64,000 nt of DNA from contig NZ_CP150667.1 in assembly GCF_038024065.1 (NCBI RefSeq), positions 2,053,501 to 2,117,500 of the forward strand, in the 5' to 3' direction. A program made the position numbers and the translations under genes. The notes beneath the pieces were generated by a model, which did no database searches, was not told where the DNA came from, and worked only from the letters and a program-made list of their open reading frames with translations. Shown here piece by piece: positions 47,091 to 58,519 of this stretch (its first letter is position 1; each line of letters begins with the position of its first letter). This DNA comes from Polaribacter sejongensis (lineage in GTDB: Bacteria; Bacteroidota; Bacteroidia; Flavobacteriales; Flavobacteriaceae).

Positions 47091-47789
47091 TTAATGACAA
47101 ATTTCATTCGCATTAATAACATCTATAACCGGAGCAGGAGAAACATAAGGAATTCCAAGACCTAGTCCTCTTAAAACAAATAAAACCCCAATAAATACAA
47201 CCACAACGGGTATTGCTTTTTGAATTTTTTTTCTAAGAGTACCTTTGGTAAAGTTGCCCAGGTAAACGACAGAAGTCATTAAAGGAATAGTACCCAAACC
47301 AAATAAAAACATGTATAAACTTCCTGAAAAAGCATTTGTAGTAGCTAAAGCTCCAAAAACAGCCATATAGACCAAACCACAAGGTAAAAATCCATTTAAA
47401 AAACCGATGGTAAAAAAAGTGTCATTTCTCTTCTTTTTCAACTCTTTGCCTAATGCATTCTTTACTTTAAAAATAACTTTATTGATGCCCTTAGAAAAAT
47501 TTATTTTTGAAAAAAATCTAGGAAAAATCACCATCAAAATCATACTGACACCAACAATTATAGATAGTTGCTGTTGAAATCCGAAGAAATAAAACCCCTT
47601 ACCTAAAAACCCAAATAATAAACCGATAAGACTATAACTAAATAACCGACCAAAATGATAGCTTAAAATTTGGAGAAAACCTTTAGTTTTATTTTGTCTA
47701 TCAATTGGCAACATAAAGGCAATAGGTCCGCACATACCAACACAGTGGAAACTACCTAATAACCCAAATAATATTGCCGATAAAAACAT
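47091..47789 (-). CDS. TauE/SafE-type membrane protein of the cbb3 cluster
   Basis: A 232-residue protein with six hydrophobic segments. The first, LLGSFHCVGMCGPIAFML, has the HCxGMCGP motif of UreH/DsbD-like sulfite exporter-type proteins that appear in cytochrome oxidase clusters and may handle copper or thiols. It is the last gene of the oxidase operon; its ATG overlaps the ccoH stop by one base. Its assembly role is inferred from position. Confidence 0.82.
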   Translation of the reverse strand: MFLSAILFGLLGSFHCVGMCGPIAFMLPIDRQNKTKGFLQILSYHFGRLFSYSLIGLLFGFLGKGFYFFGFQQQLSIIVGVSMILMVIFPRFFSKINFSKGINKVIFKVKNALGKELKKKRNDTFFTIGFLNGFLPCGLVYMAVFGALATTNAFSGSLYMFLFGLGTIPLMTSVVYLGNFTKGTLRKKIQKAIPVVVVFIGVLFVLRGLGLGIPYVSPAPVIDVINANEICH

Positions 47790-48235
47790 TAATACTGTAT
47801 TTCTCTTTTAATTAAGTATTCTTTATCCTTATATTTGAAGGCTAAATTAATGTTCCAACGACCATCTAATAAACGTTTCTCAGGCACGAGCAAATATGTA
47901 TTAGAGATTGAAATAGGTATTTCAAAATCTAATTGTTTATTAGACGGTCTATATAGGAACACTTTTCCTGTAATTTCATTTGGAGATAACTCTTTAGGAA
48001 ATTCTATTTTTAAACCTTCTACTGTTCTTTGAATAGTTACTTTATCTTTATACTTGGCGCCATTTTGCTCTGCATTAATTTCACCTTGAAAATGTACTTC
48101 TTGTTGATAATAATTTTCTGTAACTAAATCGTAACTATAAGATTTATCTGTACTCATAGTAATAACCATGTATAAAATAAAACTCATAAAAGCGACTATT
48201 GCAATAGTAATTCCTGTTCCCCAATTAAATTTCAT
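47789..48235 (-). CDS. ccoH: FixH/CcoH-family protein
   Basis: A 148-residue protein with a single N-terminal membrane helix (about residues 6-26) and a beta-rich periplasmic part (YSYDLVTENYYQQEVHFQGEINAEQNGA ... GRWNINLAFKYKDKEYLIKREI), the FixH pattern. CcoH helps to assemble cbb3 oxidase. It starts 8 bp after ccoG and overlaps the TauE/SafE gene start by one base. Confidence 0.85.
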   Translation of the reverse strand: MKFNWGTGITIAIVAFMSFILYMVITMSTDKSYSYDLVTENYYQQEVHFQGEINAEQNGAKYKDKVTIQRTVEGLKIEFPKELSPNEITGKVFLYRPSNKQLDFEIPISISNTYLLVPEKRLLDGRWNINLAFKYKDKEYLIKREIQY

Positions 48236-48243
48236 AATGTTGT

Positions 48244-49665
48244 TTATTTGTAACTTCTAGGTCCTAAAAAGTTGGTTATGGTAGTTTCAATTAATTCGTC
48301 GCCACTATAAACACCTATTTCTAACTTAATTTTATCTTTTTTTAATGCTGATGAATTTATTTCTATAAATAAAGTTCCTTCGGCTAAACCTTGTTTAGGA
48401 ATACTAAAATCTTGATTGGTTACTAATTTTATAGTTCCTTTTTGAGACATTAGTTTATAGCTAACGTCATTTATATCTTTGGTTGTTTTATTTATCACCT
48501 TAAAAGTATACACATTACTAATAATGTTATTTTCTTTATGTTGATACAATTGCCCTGGTAACCTTAAAATAGTTGCTTCAACATCATTTCTTAAAAACAA
48601 CATTCCTATTAAAACTCCTACTAAAATAAATAAGACTGCAGAATACCCTTTAATTCTTGCATTTAGTTTAAAAGGTTTCTTCTTCTCGATATTTTCTTCG
48701 CTTTCGTATCGTATTAATCCTTTTGGTAAACCAACACTTTCCATCATGTGATCACATTCATCAATACAAGCAGTACAATTTACACACTCTAATTGTGTAC
48801 CGTTTCTAATATCTATCCCGGTAGGGCAAACAACAACACATTGTTTACAATCTATACAATCTCCTTTACCAATAGCCTCTCTATCTTCGTTTTTCTTAAA
48901 CTTAGATCTTCCTGCCTCTCGTTCACCTCGTTTATGATCGTATGCTACGTTAATGGTTTTGTTATCTAATAAAACTCCTTGCAGTCTACCATACGGACAA
49001 GCAATAATACAAACCTGCTCTCTAAACCATGCAAAAATAAAATAGAAAACACACGTAAATATAATTAATGAAATTAGCGTACTTGTATTGTCTAAAGGAC
49101 TGCCAGTTATGTAAGTTATTAATGTGTCACCACCAATTAAATATGCTAGAAACACATTGGCAATCAGAAAAGAAATAACAAAGAAAATAAACCATTTTAA
49201 AAGTCTTTTTCTAATTTTATCAGCGTTCCAAGCTTGTTTATCTAAACGTATTTGCTTTCCTCTATCTCCATCAATCCAGTATTCTACTTTTCTAAAAACC
49301 ATTTCTAAAAAAATGGTTTGCGGACAAATCCATCCACAGAAAATACGACCAAAAATAACTGTAAATAGAATGATAAACACAACACCTACAATCATTGAAA
49401 TTACCAATAAGTAAAAGTCTTGTGGCCAAAAAGGAAATCCAAAAATATTAAATTTACGTTCTATAACATTAAAGAGCAAAAACTGATTCCCATTAATCTT
49501 TATAAAAGGAGCTGCTAAAAGAAATGCTAATAAAAAGTAACTTACGTAAGACCTGTATTTATAAAATTTTCCACTAGGCTTTTTAGGAAAAACCCAAGAA
49601 CGGTTACCAGATTTATCAATCGTACCAATACTATCTCTAAATTGTTCGTTTTTAGGAGTTTCCAT
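48244..49665 (-). CDS. ccoG: Cytochrome c oxidase accessory protein CcoG (FixG)
   Basis: A 473-residue membrane iron-sulphur protein. Five or so helices are interleaved with GRIFCGWICPQTIF near residue 110, CIIACPYGRLQG near 220, and the two 4Fe-4S cysteine runs CIDCKQCVVVCPTGID near 272 and CVNCTACIDECDHM near 292. The last 110 residues form an Ig-like periplasmic domain. CcoG takes part in copper reduction for oxidase assembly. It follows ccoP in the operon. Confidence 0.94.
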   Translation of the reverse strand: METPKNEQFRDSIGTIDKSGNRSWVFPKKPSGKFYKYRSYVSYFLLAFLLAAPFIKINGNQFLLFNVIERKFNIFGFPFWPQDFYLLVISMIVGVVFIILFTVIFGRIFCGWICPQTIFLEMVFRKVEYWIDGDRGKQIRLDKQAWNADKIRKRLLKWFIFFVISFLIANVFLAYLIGGDTLITYITGSPLDNTSTLISLIIFTCVFYFIFAWFREQVCIIACPYGRLQGVLLDNKTINVAYDHKRGEREAGRSKFKKNEDREAIGKGDCIDCKQCVVVCPTGIDIRNGTQLECVNCTACIDECDHMMESVGLPKGLIRYESEENIEKKKPFKLNARIKGYSAVLFILVGVLIGMLFLRNDVEATILRLPGQLYQHKENNIISNVYTFKVINKTTKDINDVSYKLMSQKGTIKLVTNQDFSIPKQGLAEGTLFIEINSSALKKDKIKLEIGVYSGDELIETTITNFLGPRSYK

Positions 49666-49693: not shown

Positions 49694-50611
49694 TTATTCT
49701 ACTTCTGTTTCTACAGGAGCTTCCTCTTCAGTTGAAGTTACCGTTACACCTTCTGCAACCCATTTATCTCCTTCAGGAGCTTTAGCATTTGCAGGTGTGG
49801 TACCTTGTAAAGAAATTACATAACTCGCAACTTTAGCAATATCATCTGCTTTTAAAGTTTTATTCCAAGCTATCATCCCTTTACCATCTCTACCTCCATT
49901 GGAAATAGTACTAAAAACATTTTTAATACCACCACCTAAAATCCAGAATTCATCTGTTAAGTTTGGTCCAATAGCTCCACCACCATCTGCAATATGACAA
50001 GATGCACAGTTCAATTTAAAAACGGCTTTACCTCTACCTAAATCTTTAGCATCGGTTAATAAAGTTACATTTTCTGCAGTTATAAAATCTGTTGCTGGTG
50101 CTGTAGATTTATATTCTTTTAAAGCAGCTTTCGCTTCTGCAACCGCTTTATCATATTCTACAATTTGATTATCGCCATCTAAGACTTCAAATCTTACTAA
50201 ATACACAATTGCAAAAACAATAGAAGCATAAAACATATACACCCACCAAGGAGGTAACGTATTGTCTAACTCTTGAATTCCATCATAGTTATGTTCTAAA
50301 ATTATTTCTTGCTCGTTATCAATATCTTTAGACTTTGTCCATGATTGTAATAGCTTTTTAATCCAAGCATTACTTTCTTCAGGAACAATACCTAATTTTT
50401 CATTTTTTAATTCTGTTGCTTTAGCAATGGCAATTACATTTACCATTTCCTTTAGTACAACAACTAAAACGAAACCAATAAGAGCGATCCAAACTAAAGG
50501 ATTCTCATAAATATCAAATGGGTTTTCGTACACCATAAACGACTTTGCAAGCGCTAAAAATGTAACAATGACAAAGATTATATAGATTGTAGATTGAAAA
50601 TATTTTTTCAT
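49694..50611 (-). CDS. ccoP: cbb3 oxidase subunit CcoP with a single c-type heme
   Basis: A 305-residue subunit. Residues 8-28 and 38-62 are membrane helices; the canonical FixP start, LPPWWVYMFYASIVFAIVYLV, comes only at about 119-139, so the protein has an N-terminal extension. One heme motif, CASCH (C202, C205, H206), is seen in a single cytochrome c domain; classical CcoP has two. The C-terminal tail is Thr/Glu-rich. It passes electrons to the CcoNO core. Neighbours are ccoQ (upstream) and ccoG. Confidence 0.9.
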   Translation of the reverse strand: MKKYFQSTIYIIFVIVTFLALAKSFMVYENPFDIYENPLVWIALIGFVLVVVLKEMVNVIAIAKATELKNEKLGIVPEESNAWIKKLLQSWTKSKDIDNEQEIILEHNYDGIQELDNTLPPWWVYMFYASIVFAIVYLVRFEVLDGDNQIVEYDKAVAEAKAALKEYKSTAPATDFITAENVTLLTDAKDLGRGKAVFKLNCASCHIADGGGAIGPNLTDEFWILGGGIKNVFSTISNGGRDGKGMIAWNKTLKADDIAKVASYVISLQGTTPANAKAPEGDKWVAEGVTVTSTEEEAPVETEVE

Positions 50612-50622
50612 TTTTTTTCGTT

Positions 50623-50790
50623 TTAGTTCTCTAATGGTAAATTACTTACCTTATTTATATATTCTTTTTTCGCTGTAAATACCCACAAGAATAAGGCAAC
50701 AAAAAAAGTAAAAAATATGATTAATGATATTAAAGGATAAATTTCGATTCCTAAAATACTCTCCATGTGACCTTTTACAAATTTTAACAT
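50623..50790 (-). CDS. ccoQ: CcoQ-like small membrane subunit of cbb3 oxidase
   Basis: A 55-residue protein read by eye in the gap between ccoNO and ccoP. It has a single hydrophobic helix (about residues 20-38, PLISLIIFFTFFVALFLWVF) followed by TAKKEYINKV, the FixQ/CcoQ pattern. The frame starts ATG at 50790, 4 bp after the ccoNO stop, and ends TAA 11 bp before the ccoP start, so it is surely part of the operon. CcoQ stabilises CcoP in the complex. Confidence 0.85.
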   Translation of the reverse strand: MLKFVKGHMESILGIEIYPLISLIIFFTFFVALFLWVFTAKKEYINKVSNLPLEN

Positions 50791-50794
50791 CGTC

Positions 50795-52990
50795 TTAGTT
50801 TTTAGTTATTTGTTGTTCGTCTTTTACTTTTATATCAGTACCTAAACGTTGTATGTAAGCTATTACTGCAACAATCTCTCTGTTTCTCATTTCAATGAAA
50901 GCCTCACCATTTTCTTCTGCATACTTTTTATCTGCTTCATAATTTTTTGCAAAATCTGGATCTGCATATAAGTTTTGCTCAATCTTAGTTCCTTGGTCTA
51001 ACATATGCTGTTGTGCATTTGCTATTTCATCTTCTGAATAAGGAACACCTAAAGTAACCATCACCTCCATTTTAGATTCAGTATTAGATTTATCTAATTC
51101 ATCTGTAATTAACCATTTATAAGAAGGCATAATAGAACCTGGAGAAGTACTTTGTGGATCATACATATGGTTTAAGTGCCAACTATCTGAATATTTAGCT
51201 CCAATTCTATGTAAATCTGGTCCTGTACGTTTAGATCCCCATAAAAATGGATGATCATATACATACTCACCTCCTTTAGAATATTCACCATAACGCTCTA
51301 CCTCACTTCTAAAAGGTCTTATCATTTGAGAGTGACAACCAACACACCCTTCTCTAATATAAAGATCTCGTCCTTCTAACTCTAATGGAGTATAAGGTTT
51401 TACACTACTAATTGTAGGAATATTAGATTTCACTAATAGGGTAGGAATAATTTGAACTGCTCCTCCAATTAAAATAGCAATCGTTGCAAAAATTGTTAAT
51501 TTAATAGGTTTTCTTTCAATCCAAGTATGCCATCCTTCTCCTTTAGTTCTGTGTTTAGGCACAACTGTTAAAGCAGCTGCTTCTGCTAACTCATCTTCTA
51601 CTTTGCTACCAGATCTTACTGTTAAAATAATATTGTATAGCATTACAAATGCACCAAGAATAAATAAACTTCCTCCAATTGCACGCATCCAGTACATTGG
51701 TATAATTTCACTAACAGTTTCTAAGAAGTTACCGTATGTTAAAGATCCATCTGGGTTAAATTGTTTCCACATAGAAGCCTGTACAAAACCTGCTACATAC
51801 ATTGGTAACGTGTATAATATAATACCTAAAGTACCAATCCAGAAATGCACGTTTGCTAAGGCAACTGAATATAATTTTGTTTTAAACATTCTTGGTACCA
51901 TCCAGTATAACATACCAAAAGTAAAGAATCCGTTCCAAGCTAATGCACCAACGTGAACGTGGGCAATAATCCAATCACTGTAATGTGCAATTGCATTTAC
52001 ATTTTTTAAAGATAACATTGGTCCTTCAAACGTTGCCATACCATAACCGGTAATTGCAACAACCATAAATTTTAAAACAGGGTCTGTTCTTACTTTATCC
52101 CAAGCTCCTCTTAAAGTTAATAAACCGTTTATCATACCACCCCAAGAAGGTGCTAATAACATTATAGAAAATGCAACTCCTAAATTCTGAGCCCATTCTG
52201 GTAATGAAGTATATAATAAATGGTGAGGTCCTGCCCAGATATAAATAAATATTAAAGACCAAAAGTGTACAATAGACAATCTATAAGAATATACTGGTCT
52301 GTTTGCTGCTTTTGGCACAAAATAATACATCAATCCTAAAAACGGTGTTGTTAAGAAAAACGCTACAGCATTATGCCCGTACCACCATTGAACTAAAGCA
52401 TCTTGCACTCCTGCATACACAGAATATGATTTTAAAAAGGTAACCGGTAATGCCAAACTATTAAAGATATGTAACACAGCAACTGTTACAAATGTTGCTA
52501 GATAAAACCAAATAGCTACATATAAGTGACGTTGTCTTCTTTGTAAGATCGTCCAGATCATGTTTACACCAAACGCAACCCACACCAATGCAATAGCAAT
52601 ATCTATTGGCCATTCTAACTCTGCATATTCTTTAGATGAAGTATATCCTAAAGGCAATGTTATGGCTGCCGCAACTATAATTGCTTGCCAACCCCAGAAG
52701 TTAAAATTACTTAAAAAATTACTAGCCATTCTTGCTTTTAGTAAACGCTGAAGCGAATAATAAACACCTGCATAAATAGCGTTACCTACAAAGGCAAAAA
52801 TTACGGCATTTGTATGTAATGGTCTTAAACGGCCAAAACTTAACCATGAAATCCCTTCTGTAAGCCCAGGGAACAAAAACATAAAAGCGAGTAAAAGTCC
52901 CACTGTAAACCCTACTATTCCCCACAACAGGGTAGCATAGATAAATTTCTTTACGATTTTATTATCGTAATAAAATTGCTGCATTTCCAT
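50795..52990 (-). CDS. ccoN: cbb3 oxidase subunits I and II fused (CcoN-CcoO)
   Basis: A 731-residue fusion. The first 480 residues are the heme-copper oxidase core with about 12 helices; marks are RPLHTNAVIFAFVGNAI, WWYGHNAVAFFLTTPFLG (copper/heme histidines) and HYSDWIIAHVHVGALAWNG. From about 510 a CcoO part follows, with EGCVGCHSQMIRPF (heme motif C549, C552, H553) and RTGPDLHRIGAKYSDSWHLNHM. In other bacteria these are separate. It reduces O2 to water at low oxygen. An alternative ATG lies 6 bp downstream. Confidence 0.95.
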   Translation of the reverse strand: MEMQQFYYDNKIVKKFIYATLLWGIVGFTVGLLLAFMFLFPGLTEGISWLSFGRLRPLHTNAVIFAFVGNAIYAGVYYSLQRLLKARMASNFLSNFNFWGWQAIIVAAAITLPLGYTSSKEYAELEWPIDIAIALVWVAFGVNMIWTILQRRQRHLYVAIWFYLATFVTVAVLHIFNSLALPVTFLKSYSVYAGVQDALVQWWYGHNAVAFFLTTPFLGLMYYFVPKAANRPVYSYRLSIVHFWSLIFIYIWAGPHHLLYTSLPEWAQNLGVAFSIMLLAPSWGGMINGLLTLRGAWDKVRTDPVLKFMVVAITGYGMATFEGPMLSLKNVNAIAHYSDWIIAHVHVGALAWNGFFTFGMLYWMVPRMFKTKLYSVALANVHFWIGTLGIILYTLPMYVAGFVQASMWKQFNPDGSLTYGNFLETVSEIIPMYWMRAIGGSLFILGAFVMLYNIILTVRSGSKVEDELAEAAALTVVPKHRTKGEGWHTWIERKPIKLTIFATIAILIGGAVQIIPTLLVKSNIPTISSVKPYTPLELEGRDLYIREGCVGCHSQMIRPFRSEVERYGEYSKGGEYVYDHPFLWGSKRTGPDLHRIGAKYSDSWHLNHMYDPQSTSPGSIMPSYKWLITDELDKSNTESKMEVMVTLGVPYSEDEIANAQQHMLDQGTKIEQNLYADPDFAKNYEADKKYAEENGEAFIEMRNREIVAVIAYIQRLGTDIKVKDEQQITKN

Positions 52991-53000
52991 AATTTAATGT

Positions 53001-53177
53001 TTAGTCTTTAGTTGATTTTTCTTTTTTATCTTTTACTAATTCATCATCAAACAGCATACGAACAGATGGTGTATAAGAATCGTCAAATTGTCCAGTTTTT
53101 ACTGAATAAATAAATGCGATAAAAAATAAGATTGCTACTAGTATACTAATAGTTAGTAGTAGGTATATTACGCTCAT
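53001..53177 (-). CDS. ccoS: cbb3 oxidase assembly protein CcoS
   Basis: A 58-residue protein from the ATG at 53177 (the longer frame from 53237 begins inside the operator). MSVIYLLLTISILVAILFFIAFIYSV is a single helix, then FDDSYTPSVRMLFDDE, the CcoS pattern. It is needed to insert cofactors into cbb3 oxidase. Unusually for this position it is the first gene of the operon, 10 bp before ccoNO. Confidence 0.85.
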   Translation of the reverse strand: MSVIYLLLTISILVAILFFIAFIYSVKTGQFDDSYTPSVRMLFDDELVKDKKEKSTKD

Positions 53178-53200
53178 ATCTTGCCTGATAATTGATTTGT

Positions 53201-53248
53201 CAAAAATAGTATTGGTCCGTTTCTTAAAACATGACAAATATCATGTTT
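53201..53248 (-). promoter_or_regulatory. FNR-type operator and promoter of the cco operon
   Basis: AAACATGA (53227-53234), 6 bp, TCATGTTT (53241-53248): perfect 8-bp arms with the TGA-N6-TCA core of CRP/FNR sites. On the minus strand a -7 box TATTTTTG follows (53208-53201), start near 53196. The dyad centre is then about 41.5 bp upstream of the start, the class II activator position, and it replaces the -33 TTG, which is absent. Confidence 0.75.
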
Positions 53249-53269
53249 AGTAAATATCTTAATTTTTTG

Positions 53270-54640
53270 TTAAATAGTCATAGAAAACAACTGTGTTTTT
53301 GGCTTATTTTTTAAAAGATGTAAATCAAATGCCATACAAATGTTTCGTACATAAGGTCTTGCCTCTTCTGGTATTGACAAAGATTTAGATTTTATATCAA
53401 TTTTAACCAATCCGTCCTGCTCCATTTCACCTAACAATGCTAAATGTTCTTCAATATTATTGATGTTCATTGTTTTGTCTTCCCACGAAGTGGAAAAATG
53501 ACACATAATATTTAAAATATGTTTTCTAATAATAATATCTTCTTCAGATAATAAATGTCCTTTAAAAATAGGAATCTCTCCCTTATTTACAATTTTCTGA
53601 TATTCTTTTACCGTCTTTACATTCTGTGCAAATGCATACCAAGAATCGGAAATTGCAGACATTCCTAAACCAATCATTAGCTTTGTTTTATTGGCAGTAT
53701 AGCCCATAAAATTCCTGTGCAATGTTTTGTTGATGGTGGCTTTATACAAACTATCGGTCTTTAATGCAAAATGATCCATACCAATTTCTACATACCCTAA
53801 CTCTGCAAAAAGTTCTTTACCTATTTCATACAACGCTCTTTTTTCATCATCTTTTGGCAAATCATCTTCATTAAAACCTCTTTGCCCAACACCTTTTACC
53901 CAGGGTACGTGTGCATAACTGTAAAATGAAATTCTGTCTGGTTGTAATTCTTTTGTTTTATTGATGCTATAAATGACGTTTTCTTTGGTTTGATGTGGTA
54001 ACCCGAAAATTAAATCGTGACTTACAGAAGTGTATCCAATTTCTCGAGACCATCTGGTCACTTGTTCTACAGCTTCAAAAGGTTGAACTCTATGAATTGC
54101 TTTTTGTACTTTTTCATTATAATCCTGTACACCAAAACTTACTCTTGTATAGCCTTCATTAAACAAGGTTTGCAATTGTTCTTTGGTAGTATTATTAGGA
54201 TGTCCTTCGAAACTAAACTCTGCTTCTGGATGTTTTTTTGCAATTTCGAAAATGCCATCCATTAAATATTTTAGATTTTCTTTTGAGAAAAAAGTTGGAG
54301 TTCCGCCACCTAAATGTAATTCTTTTACAACAGGTACTTCATCTACCAAAGCAACATATAATTTCCATTCTTTTAAAACAGTATCTATATACTCATCTTC
54401 TACTTCATGACGTTTTGTAATGTGTTTATGACACGCACAAAACGTACACAAACTCTCGCAAAAAGGTAAATGAATGTAAATACTTATTCCTTCGGATGCG
54501 TTACTTTCTTTAAAAGAAGTTTGAAAAGATTGTATCCAATCTTGTTTGTCTATTCCTGCTTTGTTCCAATAAGGCACCGTTGGATAACTGGTATATCTTG
54601 GTCCTGGAATGTTATATTTTTGTATTAGTGATTTTTTCAT
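53270..54640 (-). CDS. hemN: Oxygen-independent coproporphyrinogen III oxidase
   Basis: A 456-residue radical SAM enzyme. HLPFCESLCTFCACHK near residue 60 holds the CxxxCxxC cluster ligands; ELHLGGGTPTF near 105, GVQDYNEKVQKAIHR near 170 and YSYAHVPWVKG near 245 are family blocks. It decarboxylates coproporphyrinogen III in heme synthesis without oxygen, which suits the low-oxygen operon it is in. It starts 11 bp after deoD and ends before the FNR-type operator of the cco operon. Confidence 0.95.
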   Translation of the reverse strand: MKKSLIQKYNIPGPRYTSYPTVPYWNKAGIDKQDWIQSFQTSFKESNASEGISIYIHLPFCESLCTFCACHKHITKRHEVEDEYIDTVLKEWKLYVALVDEVPVVKELHLGGGTPTFFSKENLKYLMDGIFEIAKKHPEAEFSFEGHPNNTTKEQLQTLFNEGYTRVSFGVQDYNEKVQKAIHRVQPFEAVEQVTRWSREIGYTSVSHDLIFGLPHQTKENVIYSINKTKELQPDRISFYSYAHVPWVKGVGQRGFNEDDLPKDDEKRALYEIGKELFAELGYVEIGMDHFALKTDSLYKATINKTLHRNFMGYTANKTKLMIGLGMSAISDSWYAFAQNVKTVKEYQKIVNKGEIPIFKGHLLSEEDIIIRKHILNIMCHFSTSWEDKTMNINNIEEHLALLGEMEQDGLVKIDIKSKSLSIPEEARPYVRNICMAFDLHLLKNKPKTQLFSMTI

Positions 54641-54651
54641 TTTAAATATTT

Positions 54652-55350
54652 TTAAGCAAGCTCTAAAGCAATTTCTATCATTTCCTTAAACGTTTGTTCT
54701 CTCTCCTCTGCGGTAGTTCTTTCATTGGTTACCAAACTATCTGATATTGTTAAAATAGACAATGCGTTTACATTGTGTTTTGCTGCTACCGTGTATAAAC
54801 CCGCAGTTTCCATTTCTACACATAAAACACCATACTCTGCCCATTTTTTATAACTTTCAAATTCATCTGCATAAAATTCATCTGAACTTAAAACTCCTCC
54901 AGCATTTACAGTTATATTTTTTTCTTTTGCAACCTCTATTGCTTTCTGAAATAATTTAAAACTTGCGGTTGGCGCATAATCTGCTCCGTTAAAACGGATG
55001 GTATTTAAACCCGAATTAGTAGAAGCTGACATTGCCAAAACAATATCTCTTATTTTTACATCTTTCTGATAAGAGCCTGCAGAACCTACTCTAATCAAAT
55101 TTTTAACACCGTATTCTGTAATTAATTCTGTACAATAAATTAAGGTTGATGGAATTCCCATTCCTGTTCCTTGCACAGATACCTTTTTATCATTATAAGT
55201 ACCCGTAAAACCCAACATACCTCTCACATCATTGTATTGCTTAACATCTTTTAAAAAAGTATCTGCAATCCATTTGGCTCTCATAGGATCTCCTGGCAAC
55301 AAAACTGTTTCTGCTATTTCTCCTTTTTTTGCTTCGATATGAACACTCAT
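54652..55350 (-). CDS. deoD: Purine-nucleoside phosphorylase (DeoD type)
   Basis: A 232-residue hexameric-type [16 protein letters not shown] near residue 18, [15 protein letters not shown] near 63, [11 protein letters not shown] near 84 (phosphate site), EMETAGLY near 178 and the catalytic aspartate region [13 protein letters not shown] near 195 are present. It splits purine nucleosides with phosphate into base and ribose 1-phosphate. It is 2 bp after the copper ATPase gene and 11 bp before hemN, an unusual place for a nucleoside salvage gene. Confidence 0.94.
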
Positions 55351-55352
55351 AA

Positions 55353-57728
55353 TTATTTTATTTTATTTCCGATTAAATTGGTAGAAATTGTTGTAAAAAC
55401 CACAATACTTATAGAACTTAAAGGCATTAAAATTGCTGCCATTACAGGTATTAATTGTCCCGTTACAGCAAAATACAATCCTATTACATTATAACAAAGA
55501 GACAGTATAAAACTGTATTTTATAACTTTAATCGCTTTTTTAGAAGCCAATATATAGGCTCCTATTTTATTAAATTTTGATGCATCTAAAATACCATCAC
55601 AAGCAGGAGAAAACACATTAATATTTTCTGATAACGCAATACCAACATCACTTTTTGCCAAAGCTCCAGCATCATTTAAACCATCTCCAATCATCATTAC
55701 TTTTTGATGTTTTTGCTGAAGATCTGCTACTACTTCTAATTTATCTTCTGGTTTTTGATTGAATAACAAATTGGTGCCTTTTGGTAAATTTTCTTCTAGA
55801 TAAACTCTTTCACCTTCATTATCTCCCGAAACAACCGATAAATCATATTCTTTTTTTAAAGATTCGAATAAAGACTTTACACCTTCTCTGTAAGAATTTT
55901 TGAATGTAAACTTTCCTTTATAAATCTCATTAAAACTAACATATACAGAAGTATCTAAAGCTGATATATCTTCATTATTTTTCACAAAAGAAGAAGAACC
56001 TAACTTTAATTTTACGTCTTTACAGCTTACCTCTATTCCTTTACCTACAATTTCTTTAAAATTGGAAATTGCAAGAACTTCTACTTCTTCTAAACTCTCA
56101 TACAATGTTCTACTTAATGGATGGTTAGAGGCTCTTAAAGCACTTTTTAAAACACTTTTTTCTTGATGATTTAATTGAACACCATCATAAGAAATCGTAT
56201 TTTCTTTATGTGTGGTTAACGTACCTGTTTTATCAAAAATAATAGAATCTATAGCTGCCAGTTGTTCTACAACCGTTGCATTTTTTAAATAGAATTTTTC
56301 TCTACCAAAAATACGTAGCATATTTCCTAAAGTAAATGGTGCTGCTAAAGCAATTGCACAAGGACATGCTATAATTAAAACTGCAGTAAACACATTTAAT
56401 GCTTTGCTTGCATCATAAAACAACCAAAAACTAGTAGACAAGAAAGCAACGAGTAAAACTAGTATTGTAAAATTCTTACTAATTGTATCTGTAATGGTTT
56501 TAAAAGGTGATTTATTATCTTTATTAAACACATCATTGCTCCATAATTGCGTTAAATAACTTTGAGAAACAGAAGCTAAAACCTCCATTTCTATCACTCC
56601 TGAAAGTTGCTTACCTCCAGCAAATAACTTGTCTCCAGATTTTTTAGAAACTGGTTCCGCTTCTCCGGTAACAAAACTATAATCGATATCTGCAGTTCCG
56701 TTGATAAGAATACCATCCGTAGGAATTAATTCTTGGTTTCTAATAAGCAATCTATCTCCTTTTTCAATATCATAAATAGCCACATTTTCTTCTTTTCCTT
56801 TAGAAGTTATACGCGTAACTGCAATAGGAAAATAAGATTTATAATCTCGTTCAAAAGACAGGAAGTTGTATGTTTTCTGCTGAAAAAACTTCCCTAATAA
56901 AAGGAAAAAAACCAACCCAGTTAAACTGTCGAAAAAACCAGTTCCTAAATCGAAAATAATTTCTACAGTACTCCTTATAAATAAAACTAAAATACCCAGC
57001 GCAATAGGAACATCAATATTTAAAATTTTAGATCGCAACCCTTTAAAAGCAGAAACAAAATAACCTTGTCCTGCATAAAAAACAACCGGTAAAGAAAAAG
57101 CAAACATTAACCACCTAAAGAGCGTTTTATATTTCTCTATCCAAAAACCATCTACTTCAAAATACTCTGGAAAAGAAAGAAACATAACGTTTCCGAATGC
57201 AAAACCCGCAATCCCTAATTTATAAATTAGACTTCTGTCTACAGCTTTTTTGCCGCCTTCATAATCATCTAAACTAATGTAAGGTTCATAACCAATAGAG
57301 CTTATTAAAAGAACAATTTCTTTTAAAGTGGTTTTTTCAGAATTAAAAGTAACCCTTACTTGTTTCTTCGGAAAATCTACTTGAGACGAAGATATTTTAT
57401 CATTTAATTTGTGTAAGTTTTCTAATATCCAAATGCAAGAGCTGCAATGAATATGAGGTATATAAAGGGTTGCAATCTGCGTATTTCCATCATTAAAATC
57501 TAATAATTTCTCCGCTATTTCTGTCGTATCTAGAAAATCATATTTTCCTTGAATTTCAGATGGGATTGCTCCTGGATTGTCTTGAAAATTGTAATAACAA
57601 GTTAAATCGTTTTCAGAAAAAATTTCATAAACAGTTTTACAACCATTGCAACAGAAACTCTTTTCATCGAACTTTATTAAATTATCATCACAAGAATCAC
57701 CACAGTGATAACATTGTGTAGATTTCAT
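55353..57728 (-). CDS. ccoI: Copper P-type ATPase of the cbb3 oxidase (CcoI/FixI type)
   Basis: A 791-residue P1B-ATPase. The N-terminal part has CYHCGDSC and [10 protein letters not shown] (residues 6-35), a zinc-ribbon-like region, then an HMA-like domain with HCSSCIW (C95, C98). Later come the translocation motif [10 protein letters not shown] near 455, the phosphorylation site DKTGTLT near 495 and GDGLNDAG near 690. These are marks of FixI/CcoI, which supplies copper for cbb3 oxidase. It is the first gene of ccoI-deoD-hemN, divergent from the FNR-type gene. Confidence 0.92.
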
Positions 57729-57748
57729 ATTTACTCTTTTGCCTTTTG

Positions 57749-57809
57749 CAAATTTACGATAAGAATCATGTTTTAGAACATGATATATATCACATTTTTA
57801 ATATCTTTG
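57749..57809. promoter_or_regulatory. Divergent promoter region with FNR-type operator(s)
   Basis: AACATGA (57777-57783), 6 bp, TCACATT (57790-57796) carries the same TGA-N6-TCA dyad (core TGATATATATCA, 57781-57792). Another perfect palindrome, ATCATGTT-TTAG-AACATGAT (57765-57784), shares its right arm. Leftwards a -7 box TAAATTTG (57756-57749) gives a ccoI start near 57744, with the dyad centre about 42.5 bp upstream. Rightwards TATCTTTG (57802-57809) gives an fnr start near 57814, so the same dyad would lie about 27 bp upstream and could repress. Confidence 0.7.
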
Positions 57810-57832: not shown

Positions 57833-58519
57833 ATGAGTAAATGCGAGCAATGTATTATTCGTCAATTTAATTCCTTACAACACTTAACTAAAGAAGAGTT
57901 GGTTAAGATTTCTAACTGTAAAACAACTAAAGTTATAAAAAAAGGTGAGGCTATTTTTGAGGAAGGCGAGCGATTAAAAGGTGTTTTTTGTATTAAGGAT
58001 GGTGTTTGCAAGGTTTCTAAAATGAGTGAAAATGGTAGAAATCAAATTATTAGCTTGGTTACCAAAGGTGATTTATTAGGAGAAAGAAGTTTAATATCCG
58101 ACGAAGCATCTAATCTTAAGGCAGTTGCCTTAAATGACATGCAAGTCTGTTTTATTCCTAAAGAAGAAATTTTAAAGGATCTATCTAAAAACCCAAACTT
58201 TACCATGAATGTGCTTAAAGATATGGCACAAACCTTAAAGCAAGCTGATAATGTTATTGTAGATATGGCTCAAAAGACCGTGAAGCAACGTTTAGCCGAA
58301 ACACTTCTAAATCTACATAAAAAATTTGGTACAAACAGAGAAGACACAATAGACATTCACCTTTCTAGAGAAGACATTGCTAATATTATAGGAACAGCCA
58401 CAGAGTCTGCAATCCGCTTACTTTCTGAGTTAAAAAAGAAGAATATTATTGAGTTTAAAGGAAAGGATATTTCAATATTAAATAGTGTTGAATTAGACAA
58501 AATTGCTCAAGGATTCTAA
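57833..58519 (+). CDS. FNR/CRP-family regulator (oxygen-sensor candidate)
   Basis: A 228-residue protein from the ATG at 57833 (the frame from 57746 starts within the operator). A cyclic-nucleotide-type beta roll (about residues 20-125), a dimer helix, and a C-terminal HTH (EDIANIIGTATESAIRLLSEL) are seen. CEQC (C4, C7) matches C20/C23 of E. coli FNR and C106 in QVCFIPKE matches C122, but the third ligand position is Asn13; other cysteines are C29, C53 and C59. Glu and Arg of the recognition helix are kept. It likely controls the two cco operons; this is inference. Confidence 0.88.
   Translation: MSKCEQCIIRQFNSLQHLTKEELVKISNCKTTKVIKKGEAIFEEGERLKGVFCIKDGVCKVSKMSENGRNQIISLVTKGDLLGERSLISDEASNLKAVALNDMQVCFIPKEEILKDLSKNPNFTMNVLKDMAQTLKQADNVIVDMAQKTVKQRLAETLLNLHKKFGTNREDTIDIHLSREDIANIIGTATESAIRLLSELKKKNIIEFKGKDISILNSVELDKIAQGF

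Follow-up and report, generated by a model that had tools for sequence, protein, structure and literature searches.

A putative Crp/Fnr operator at a fixed place ahead of the cbb3 oxidase genes of Polaribacter and other Bacteroidia

Bacteroidota abound in seas, soils and guts, and the switching-on of their high-affinity respiration is little documented in the literature that was searched. A stretch of 64,000 nucleotides from the 4.50-Mb genome of Polaribacter sejongensis (contig NZ_CP150667.1, positions 2,053,501 to 2,117,500; called the window below) raises the question in a concrete form. At 57.7-57.8 kb of the window two units diverge: fnr (57833-58519, forward strand), which encodes an FNR-like regulator, and the ccoI-deoD-hemN operon (57728-53270, reverse strand). 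The latter is followed, after a gap of 92 bp, by the cbb3 oxidase operon ccoS-NO-Q-P-G-H with a DsbD_2-type gene (53177-47091, reverse strand). Both cco units begin alike, with a dyad, about 20 bp, a TAnnTTTG box, a leader and an ATG. Which factor reads this dyad, and what does it do there?

The answer preferred here, to which we give a probability of about 0.82, is that the dyad would be the operator for a class II activator of the Crp/Fnr family with a TExxIR recognition helix, acting on genes for low-oxygen life and nitrite respiration. The adjacent FNR-like protein is the prime candidate for the reader, and a fusion of a receiver domain with a Crp part (receiver-CRP fusion), encoded elsewhere in the genome, can probably act on the same operators. 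This reading provides a concrete operator with a precise position in the unusual promoter of the phylum, a list of targets and two candidate sensors, and thereby makes the oxygen response directly testable.

Geometry of the cco promoters

Ahead of ccoS lies the perfect dyad AACATGA-N6-TCATGTT (AACATGACAAATATCATGTT, 53228-53247, centre 53237.5), which is extended outward by one further A/T pair and whose centre is 36.5 bp from the G of the -7 box TATTTTTG (53208-53201, reverse strand). The putative ccoI operator, AACATGA-N6-TCACATT (AACATGATATATATCACATT, 57777-57796, centre 57786.5), has two mismatches and lies with its centre 37.5 bp from the -7 box TAAATTTG (57756-57749, reverse strand). The initial annotation of this DNA, made from the sequence alone, had given these dyads, boxes and distances, and the coordinates bear it out. 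It had also assumed that transcription starts 5 nt past each box, which would be at an A at position 53196 for ccoS and at 57744 for ccoI (both on the reverse strand). This agrees with the leaders compared, of which 62 of 78 at ccoI and 55 of 71 at ccoS have an A at this position, and with the available part of a study of Flavobacterium psychrophilum, where the -7 box is placed at -12 to -5 (PMC9723704). Because the box is taken at -12 to -5, the dyad centre falls at -41.5, and that of a second, tandem dyad, found in other genomes of the class, at -63.5.

The same arrangement recurs in relatives. Eighty loci were picked through their FNR gene, a choice that cannot tell how often cco genes stand without one; 71 of them and the window make up the ccoS set (n = 72; nine loci without a ccoS match were dropped), and 78 and the window the ccoI set (n = 79; L031 and L073, without a ccoI match, were dropped). 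Each of the 72 ccoS promoters has a single TGAN6TCA dyad, with the TAnnTTTG box at 36.5 bp from its centre in 71. A TGAN6TCA dyad is also present in all 79 gaps between fnr and ccoI; for the window, the annotation had noted that an FNR-type gene starts beside the second site (fnr ATG at 57833). At ccoI the distance to TTTG is 36.5 bp in 73 promoters, 35.5 bp in two, 37.5 bp in two (window included) and 29.5 bp in one, with no TTTG in the last; because 73 of the 79 show 36.5 bp, the 37.5 bp of the window is a quirk of its lineage. The ccoI box of the relatives reads NAnnTTTG, the first T being mostly absent. As for the two dropped loci, a dyad is visible by eye in L031 and none in L073.

The upstream promoter element is missing as well. 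By eye, the stretch 16-24 nt ahead of the box holds no TTG in either cco promoter of the window; in the two sets, 2 of the 72 ccoS promoters have one there and none of the 6 scorable ccoI promoters does. Two further statements of the annotation thus stand, namely that the -33 TTG is missing from both promoters and that the dyad centre, as judged from the box distance, lies near -41.5, the class II position.

From sequence, geometry, conservation and gene content we infer the following course of events. A Crp/Fnr dimer would bind the dyad centred at -41.5 and recruit RNA polymerase to promoters that combine a TAnnTTTG -7 box with the lack of a -33 TTG, as expected of class II activation. At low oxygen this would jointly induce the cbb3 oxidase of ccoS-NO-Q-P-G-H, its copper supply through ccoI and, through hemN, heme synthesis that needs no oxygen; nitrite reductase, further cytochromes and genes of stress and central metabolism would be induced with them. 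The cbb3 and heme-pathway genes of F. psychrophilum do rise under oxygen limitation, according to the available part of PMC9723704.

The ccoI dyad also overlies the -33 region of fnr: its centre is separated by 22.5 bp from the G of the fnr -7 box TATCTTTG (57802-57809, forward strand), a distance shown by a box of this type in 42 of the 79 regions, with 23.5 bp in 5 others. Given this overlap, the FNR-like protein probably controls its own gene, and the bound factor may repress or tune it. One might go further and suppose that the dyads serve repression altogether, a protein near -41 blocking transcription in air, as the same dyad does occupy a repressing position at fnr. This seems very improbable to us, since the absent -33 TTG, the degenerate ccoI -7 box and the fixed centre at -41.5 in many promoters fit activation, and a repressor site has no need to hold phase.

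The site has the form ATGAYN4RTCAT. Its core, TGAY-N4-RTCA, is common with the textbook FNR operator, TTGATN4ATCAA, and to this extent the label of FNR-type operator given in the annotation is apt; the whole textbook sequence is not matched. Two smaller features touch the same regions. A perfect inverted repeat, ATCATGTT-N4-AACATGAT (spacer TTAG, 57765-57784), overlaps the ccoI dyad; it is present in 1 of 79 ccoI regions, that of the window, and was dropped as a functional element, being probably incidental. The leaders between -7 box and ATG (57729-57748 and 53178-53200) look conserved, those of ccoI being of the type AGGCAAAAGAGTAAAT or AGGTATAAATGAGCAAAT and those of ccoS of the type TATCAGGCAAGAT or AACTTC...AGGT.

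Chance expectation and the extent of the regulon

AT-rich palindromes could arise by chance and be retained through recent common descent, and the loose motif lends this some credit: with up to three mismatches it has 9 matches in the window against 7.2 expected, so that a match of this kind carries no meaning by itself. The exact sequence ACATGAN6TCATGT occurs once in the genome, at ccoS. As genome tests, two patterns were weak and were set aside: ACATGAN6TCATGT, when one mismatch was allowed, matched 14 places and its reversed form 7, and AYATGAYN4RTCATRT alone matched 2 and its reversed form 1. When the dyad was joined to the box the outcome differed: ATGAYN4RTCA with a box at N20-25 (six spacings), searched in the reverse direction, gave 14 places in the own genome, and turning the degenerate half the other way round gave 9, the reversed pattern giving none in either case. 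At 30 control spacings dyad and box gave 7 places and the reversed pattern 6, which is the background level, and two of these seven share their dyad with places from the two main-spacing scans.

The class-wide scan covered 119 genomes, 68 of them with ccoN, and upstream regions were obtained from 60 of the 67 other ccoN genomes (those outside the 60 are G012, G050, G065, G075, G086, G115 and G118). Three of the 60 regions had no ccoS match and were read upstream of ccoN, and two belong to the window's own family. The dyad is present in 50 of the 60, compared with a mean of 2.8 and a maximum of 8 after shuffling, and its mid-spacer bases vary across the class while the dyad itself stays conserved. 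Of these 50 regions, 41 have TTTG or TTTA 36.5 bp from the gene-proximal dyad, 2 have it at 35.5 bp, and 7 lack it. Furthermore, 35 of the 60 regions (L215-L274) carry tandem dyads exactly 22 bp apart upstream of ccoS, an arrangement that arose 0 times in 300 rounds of shuffling and that none of the 71 loci compared with the window showed ahead of ccoS. Because of the spacing test in the own genome, the fixed geometry in the relatives and the class-wide shuffles, the exact arrangement of dyad and box exceeds chance. In our view the counts already refute an origin as chance palindromes, to which we leave next to no weight, given conservation across the class with a variable mid-spacer and enrichment at one spacing ahead of unrelated genes.

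Ten genomes of the same genus yielded 84 matches to the dyad-box pattern, which are non-independent in that orthologous promoters recur, against 8 for the reversed pattern. The spacing is N22 in 61 of them, N21 in 11, N23 in 10, and N24 and N25 in one each; N22 still accounts for 51 of the 67 matches that are left after removal of ccoS, ccoI and a fatty acid desaturase. Six genomes outside the family but within the order gave 26 matches, 15 of them with N22, and none for the reversed pattern. A genome search for the dyad ahead of heme, cytochrome and low-oxygen genes had been proposed in the initial annotation, and dyad-box units do precede cbb3, cytochrome, heme and nitrite-respiration genes in the same-genus genomes. 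There, the genes downstream are ccoS (10 of 10 genomes), the desaturase (6), nirK (5) and SQR (3), and in one or two genomes those for a cytochrome c, ResB, pta, hemA, RIC and an Rrf2 regulator; by eye, truncated-haemoglobin-like (three genomes), UspA-like and NorC-like genes as well as nadA, pfkA and fumC were added. The unit ahead of the desaturase (L116:394-1482) has the N21 spacing in 6 of the 10 genomes.

With nirK, RIC and, by eye, the truncated-haemoglobin-like and NorC-like genes among the targets, the factor could sense nitric oxide (NO) or redox instead of oxygen, in a role like that of DNR or HcpR, and the cbb3 oxidase would then be one target among NO-related genes. We think this unlikely, as the most constant target is the cbb3 oxidase and the FNR-like protein retains a CxxC and an equivalent of C122. 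HcpR of Bacteroides and Porphyromonas, as described in the available parts of two papers (PMC1274295, PMC6955866), resembles the present case in its Crp/Fnr family and its phylum; it differs in that it senses NO and controls hcp, and in that its motif is another one (HcpR2, GTAACnnnnGTTAC, PMC1274295, in most such genomes, and other motifs in P. gingivalis).

Two candidate readers

The FNR-like protein (228 aa) matches PF00027 and PF13545 above the cut-off, and so consists of a cNMP-binding beta-roll and a Crp-type helix-turn-helix domain. A sequence search against solved structures put 2gau first, followed by the FNR-type regulators 9qlt and 5cvr, and the closest named FNR among the matches listed (120 of 7475), whose named members are nearly all Polaribacter, is 99% identical and from an unclassified Polaribacter. 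The cysteines C4, C7 and C106 sit where E. coli FNR has C20, C23 and C122 in all 81 sequences compared, in which the protein's own C29 and C53 are invariant too; of 22 further members of the class, 21 carry the full set C4, C7, C53 and C106, and the exception, L288, is without the first three. The protein is probably an iron-sulfur oxygen sensor with C4, C7, C106 and perhaps C53 as ligands. Its recognition helix, TATESAIR, retains the E and R of E. coli FNR, and the altered residues beside them appear to accompany the altered half-site, along the lines of the correlation between residues and bases described in the available part of PMC1274295. The gene adjoins ccoI in the sampled Flavobacteriaceae, whose loci were found through their FNR.

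A number of observations weigh against this reading, in part or as a whole. The protein scores 111.5 bits, below the NCBIfam cut-off for Fnr of 228, and at the position of E. coli C29 it has N in 79 of the 81 sequences, with S and T in one each. Of the 21 class members, 16 carry an extra cysteine 8-10 residues after the CxxC; in those proteins it may serve as the usual third ligand, which makes C53 as a ligand a guess. Six of the 84 same-genus matches lie inside frames of at least 100 aa and five have no frame downstream, and 10 of the 60 class-wide regions are without a dyad. A Flavobacteriales CRP/FNR homologue, possibly a different protein, is predicted to be MalR-like and carbon-sensing in the available part of PMC8510549. 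Across the class, the dyad does not need FNR, because all 19 genomes with only long regulator frames keep it. The receiver-CRP fusion, with its helix ATETLIR, shares the recognition residues ATExxIR with the FNR-like protein. Finally, one same-genus genome, G007 (one contig, 99% complete), holds only a remnant of fnr, yet has both cco sites.

In the own genome the fusion (349 aa) is encoded at C1:2712372-2713418, directly behind a kinase with PAS, HisKA and HATPase domains. Helices of the form TE(S/T)TIR or TESVIR occur in the class proteins L220, L221, L224, L231 and L241. Dyad-box units flank the pair of kinase and fusion (L275:4870-7157) on both sides and precede a UspA-like gene downstream and a 135-aa gene (with its box TAACTTTA at 36.5 bp, as measured by hand). 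The further Crp paralogues L276 and L277 were considered as readers and rejected, since their recognition helices differ.

The 60 class-wide regions were split by hand according to the regulators of their genomes, with long frames taken as 350-493 aa and E 1e-25 as the threshold for no match. The dyad is present in 19 of 19 regions with long frames only (tandem in 14), in 13 of 16 with short FNR-type frames only (tandem in 7), in 14 of 19 with mixed types (tandem in 11) and in 4 of 6 with no regulator match (tandem in 3); the tandem form is found with either type of regulator. Within 12 kb of ccoN, an FNR-type gene was found by hand in 10 of the 67 genomes, a fusion-type gene, judged by frame length, in 17 (the frame in G068 being 232 aa), and both in none.

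The real activator could therefore be the fusion, phosphorylated by the PAS histidine kinase, and FNR would be secondary or mainly self-regulating. The shared recognition residues, the pair in the own genome with a dyad-box unit ahead of the downstream UspA-like gene, the 17 fusion-type genes near ccoN, the 19 long-frame genomes and the sites of G007 all favor this proposal. We nevertheless hold it to be doubtful, though the most serious of the rivals, because 7 of the 10 same-genus genomes have no receiver-CRP match at E 1e-40 and keep both FNR and the ccoS site, and because in the sampled Flavobacteriaceae, found as they were through FNR, it is FNR and not the fusion that adjoins ccoI. We return then to the FNR-like protein as the prime candidate, with the fusion probably at the same operators. 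The control by the neighboring FNR that the initial annotation proposed is likely in view of adjacency, geometry and targets, and is qualified by the lack of one of the four cluster cysteines of E. coli FNR, by the fusion with the same residues and by G007.

The same-genus genomes contain FNR only in seven cases, both regulators in two and the fusion only in one, which is G007. There the ccoI and ccoS dyads keep their 36.5 bp and the dyad-box pattern has 10 matches. The remnant of fnr (L298:7150-7300) is a short stretch beside ccoI that resembles both ends of the gene. A single regulator of either kind thus seems to suffice for keeping the sites; alternatively, dyads may outlive a lost fnr where unused sites decay slowly. 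It is an even bet, in our estimate, that the cbb3 regulon of Bacteroidia has one operator code, TGAY-N4-RTCA at -41.5 and often doubled at -63.5, with two interchangeable sensors, the reader being swapped between an FNR with altered cysteines and a PAS-kinase/receiver-CRP pair without a change of site, and G007 being a natural swap. The findings suggest that an operator can stay fixed while regulators that sense by different chemistry take each other's place on it.

Known systems and the gene content of the window

In Proteobacteria, control of cbb3 genes by class II activators of the Crp/Fnr family is a known kind of regulation. The class II promoters of E. coli FNR likewise have a dimer site near -41.5, a weak upstream element and low-oxygen targets, and their regulator has the same E and R; here, in contrast, the half-site is ATGAY instead of TTGAT, the -7 box is that of Bacteroidota, and the protein has N for C29 and I for S212. 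FixK2 and ANR of Proteobacteria resemble the present system as Crp/Fnr factors that act on the cbb3 oxidase and its assembly genes, but phylum, sigma factor and operator sequence are different here, and 22-bp tandems occur in the class-wide regions. In the FixL-FixJ-FixK cascade, too, a PAS kinase feeds a Crp-type activator of cbb3 genes, whereas in the present case a single protein combines receiver and Crp part. No paper on such an operator in Bacteroidota was found in searches of the open-access literature, and what is new here is the motif, its fixed place relative to the Bacteroidota promoter, the 22-bp tandem and the two candidate readers.

All genes of the two cco units lie on the reverse strand. 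The first unit consists of ccoI, a heavy-metal (copper-type) P-ATPase named for its gene position (55353-57728), a deoD-like nucleoside phosphorylase (PNP_UDP_1, 54652-55350) and hemN, an oxygen-independent coproporphyrinogen III oxidase (53270-54640). The second starts with ccoS (58 aa, 53001-53177) and continues with a ccoNO fusion for subunits I and II of the cbb3 oxidase (50795-52990), ccoQ (50623-50790; FixQ at 23.3 bits, under the Pfam cut-off of 29), ccoP (49694-50611; TIGR00782 at 112.5 bits, under the cut-off of 179.95), ccoG (48244-49665) and ccoH (FixH, 47789-48235), and the gene of a DsbD_2-type membrane protein ends the operon (47091-47789). In those Polaribacter and Tenacibaculum loci that show both ccoI and ccoS, hemN stands between them with or without deoD (53270-55350 in the window), and in the other sampled Flavobacteriaceae ccoI is mostly immediately ahead of ccoS, with few exceptions such as L083 and L085.

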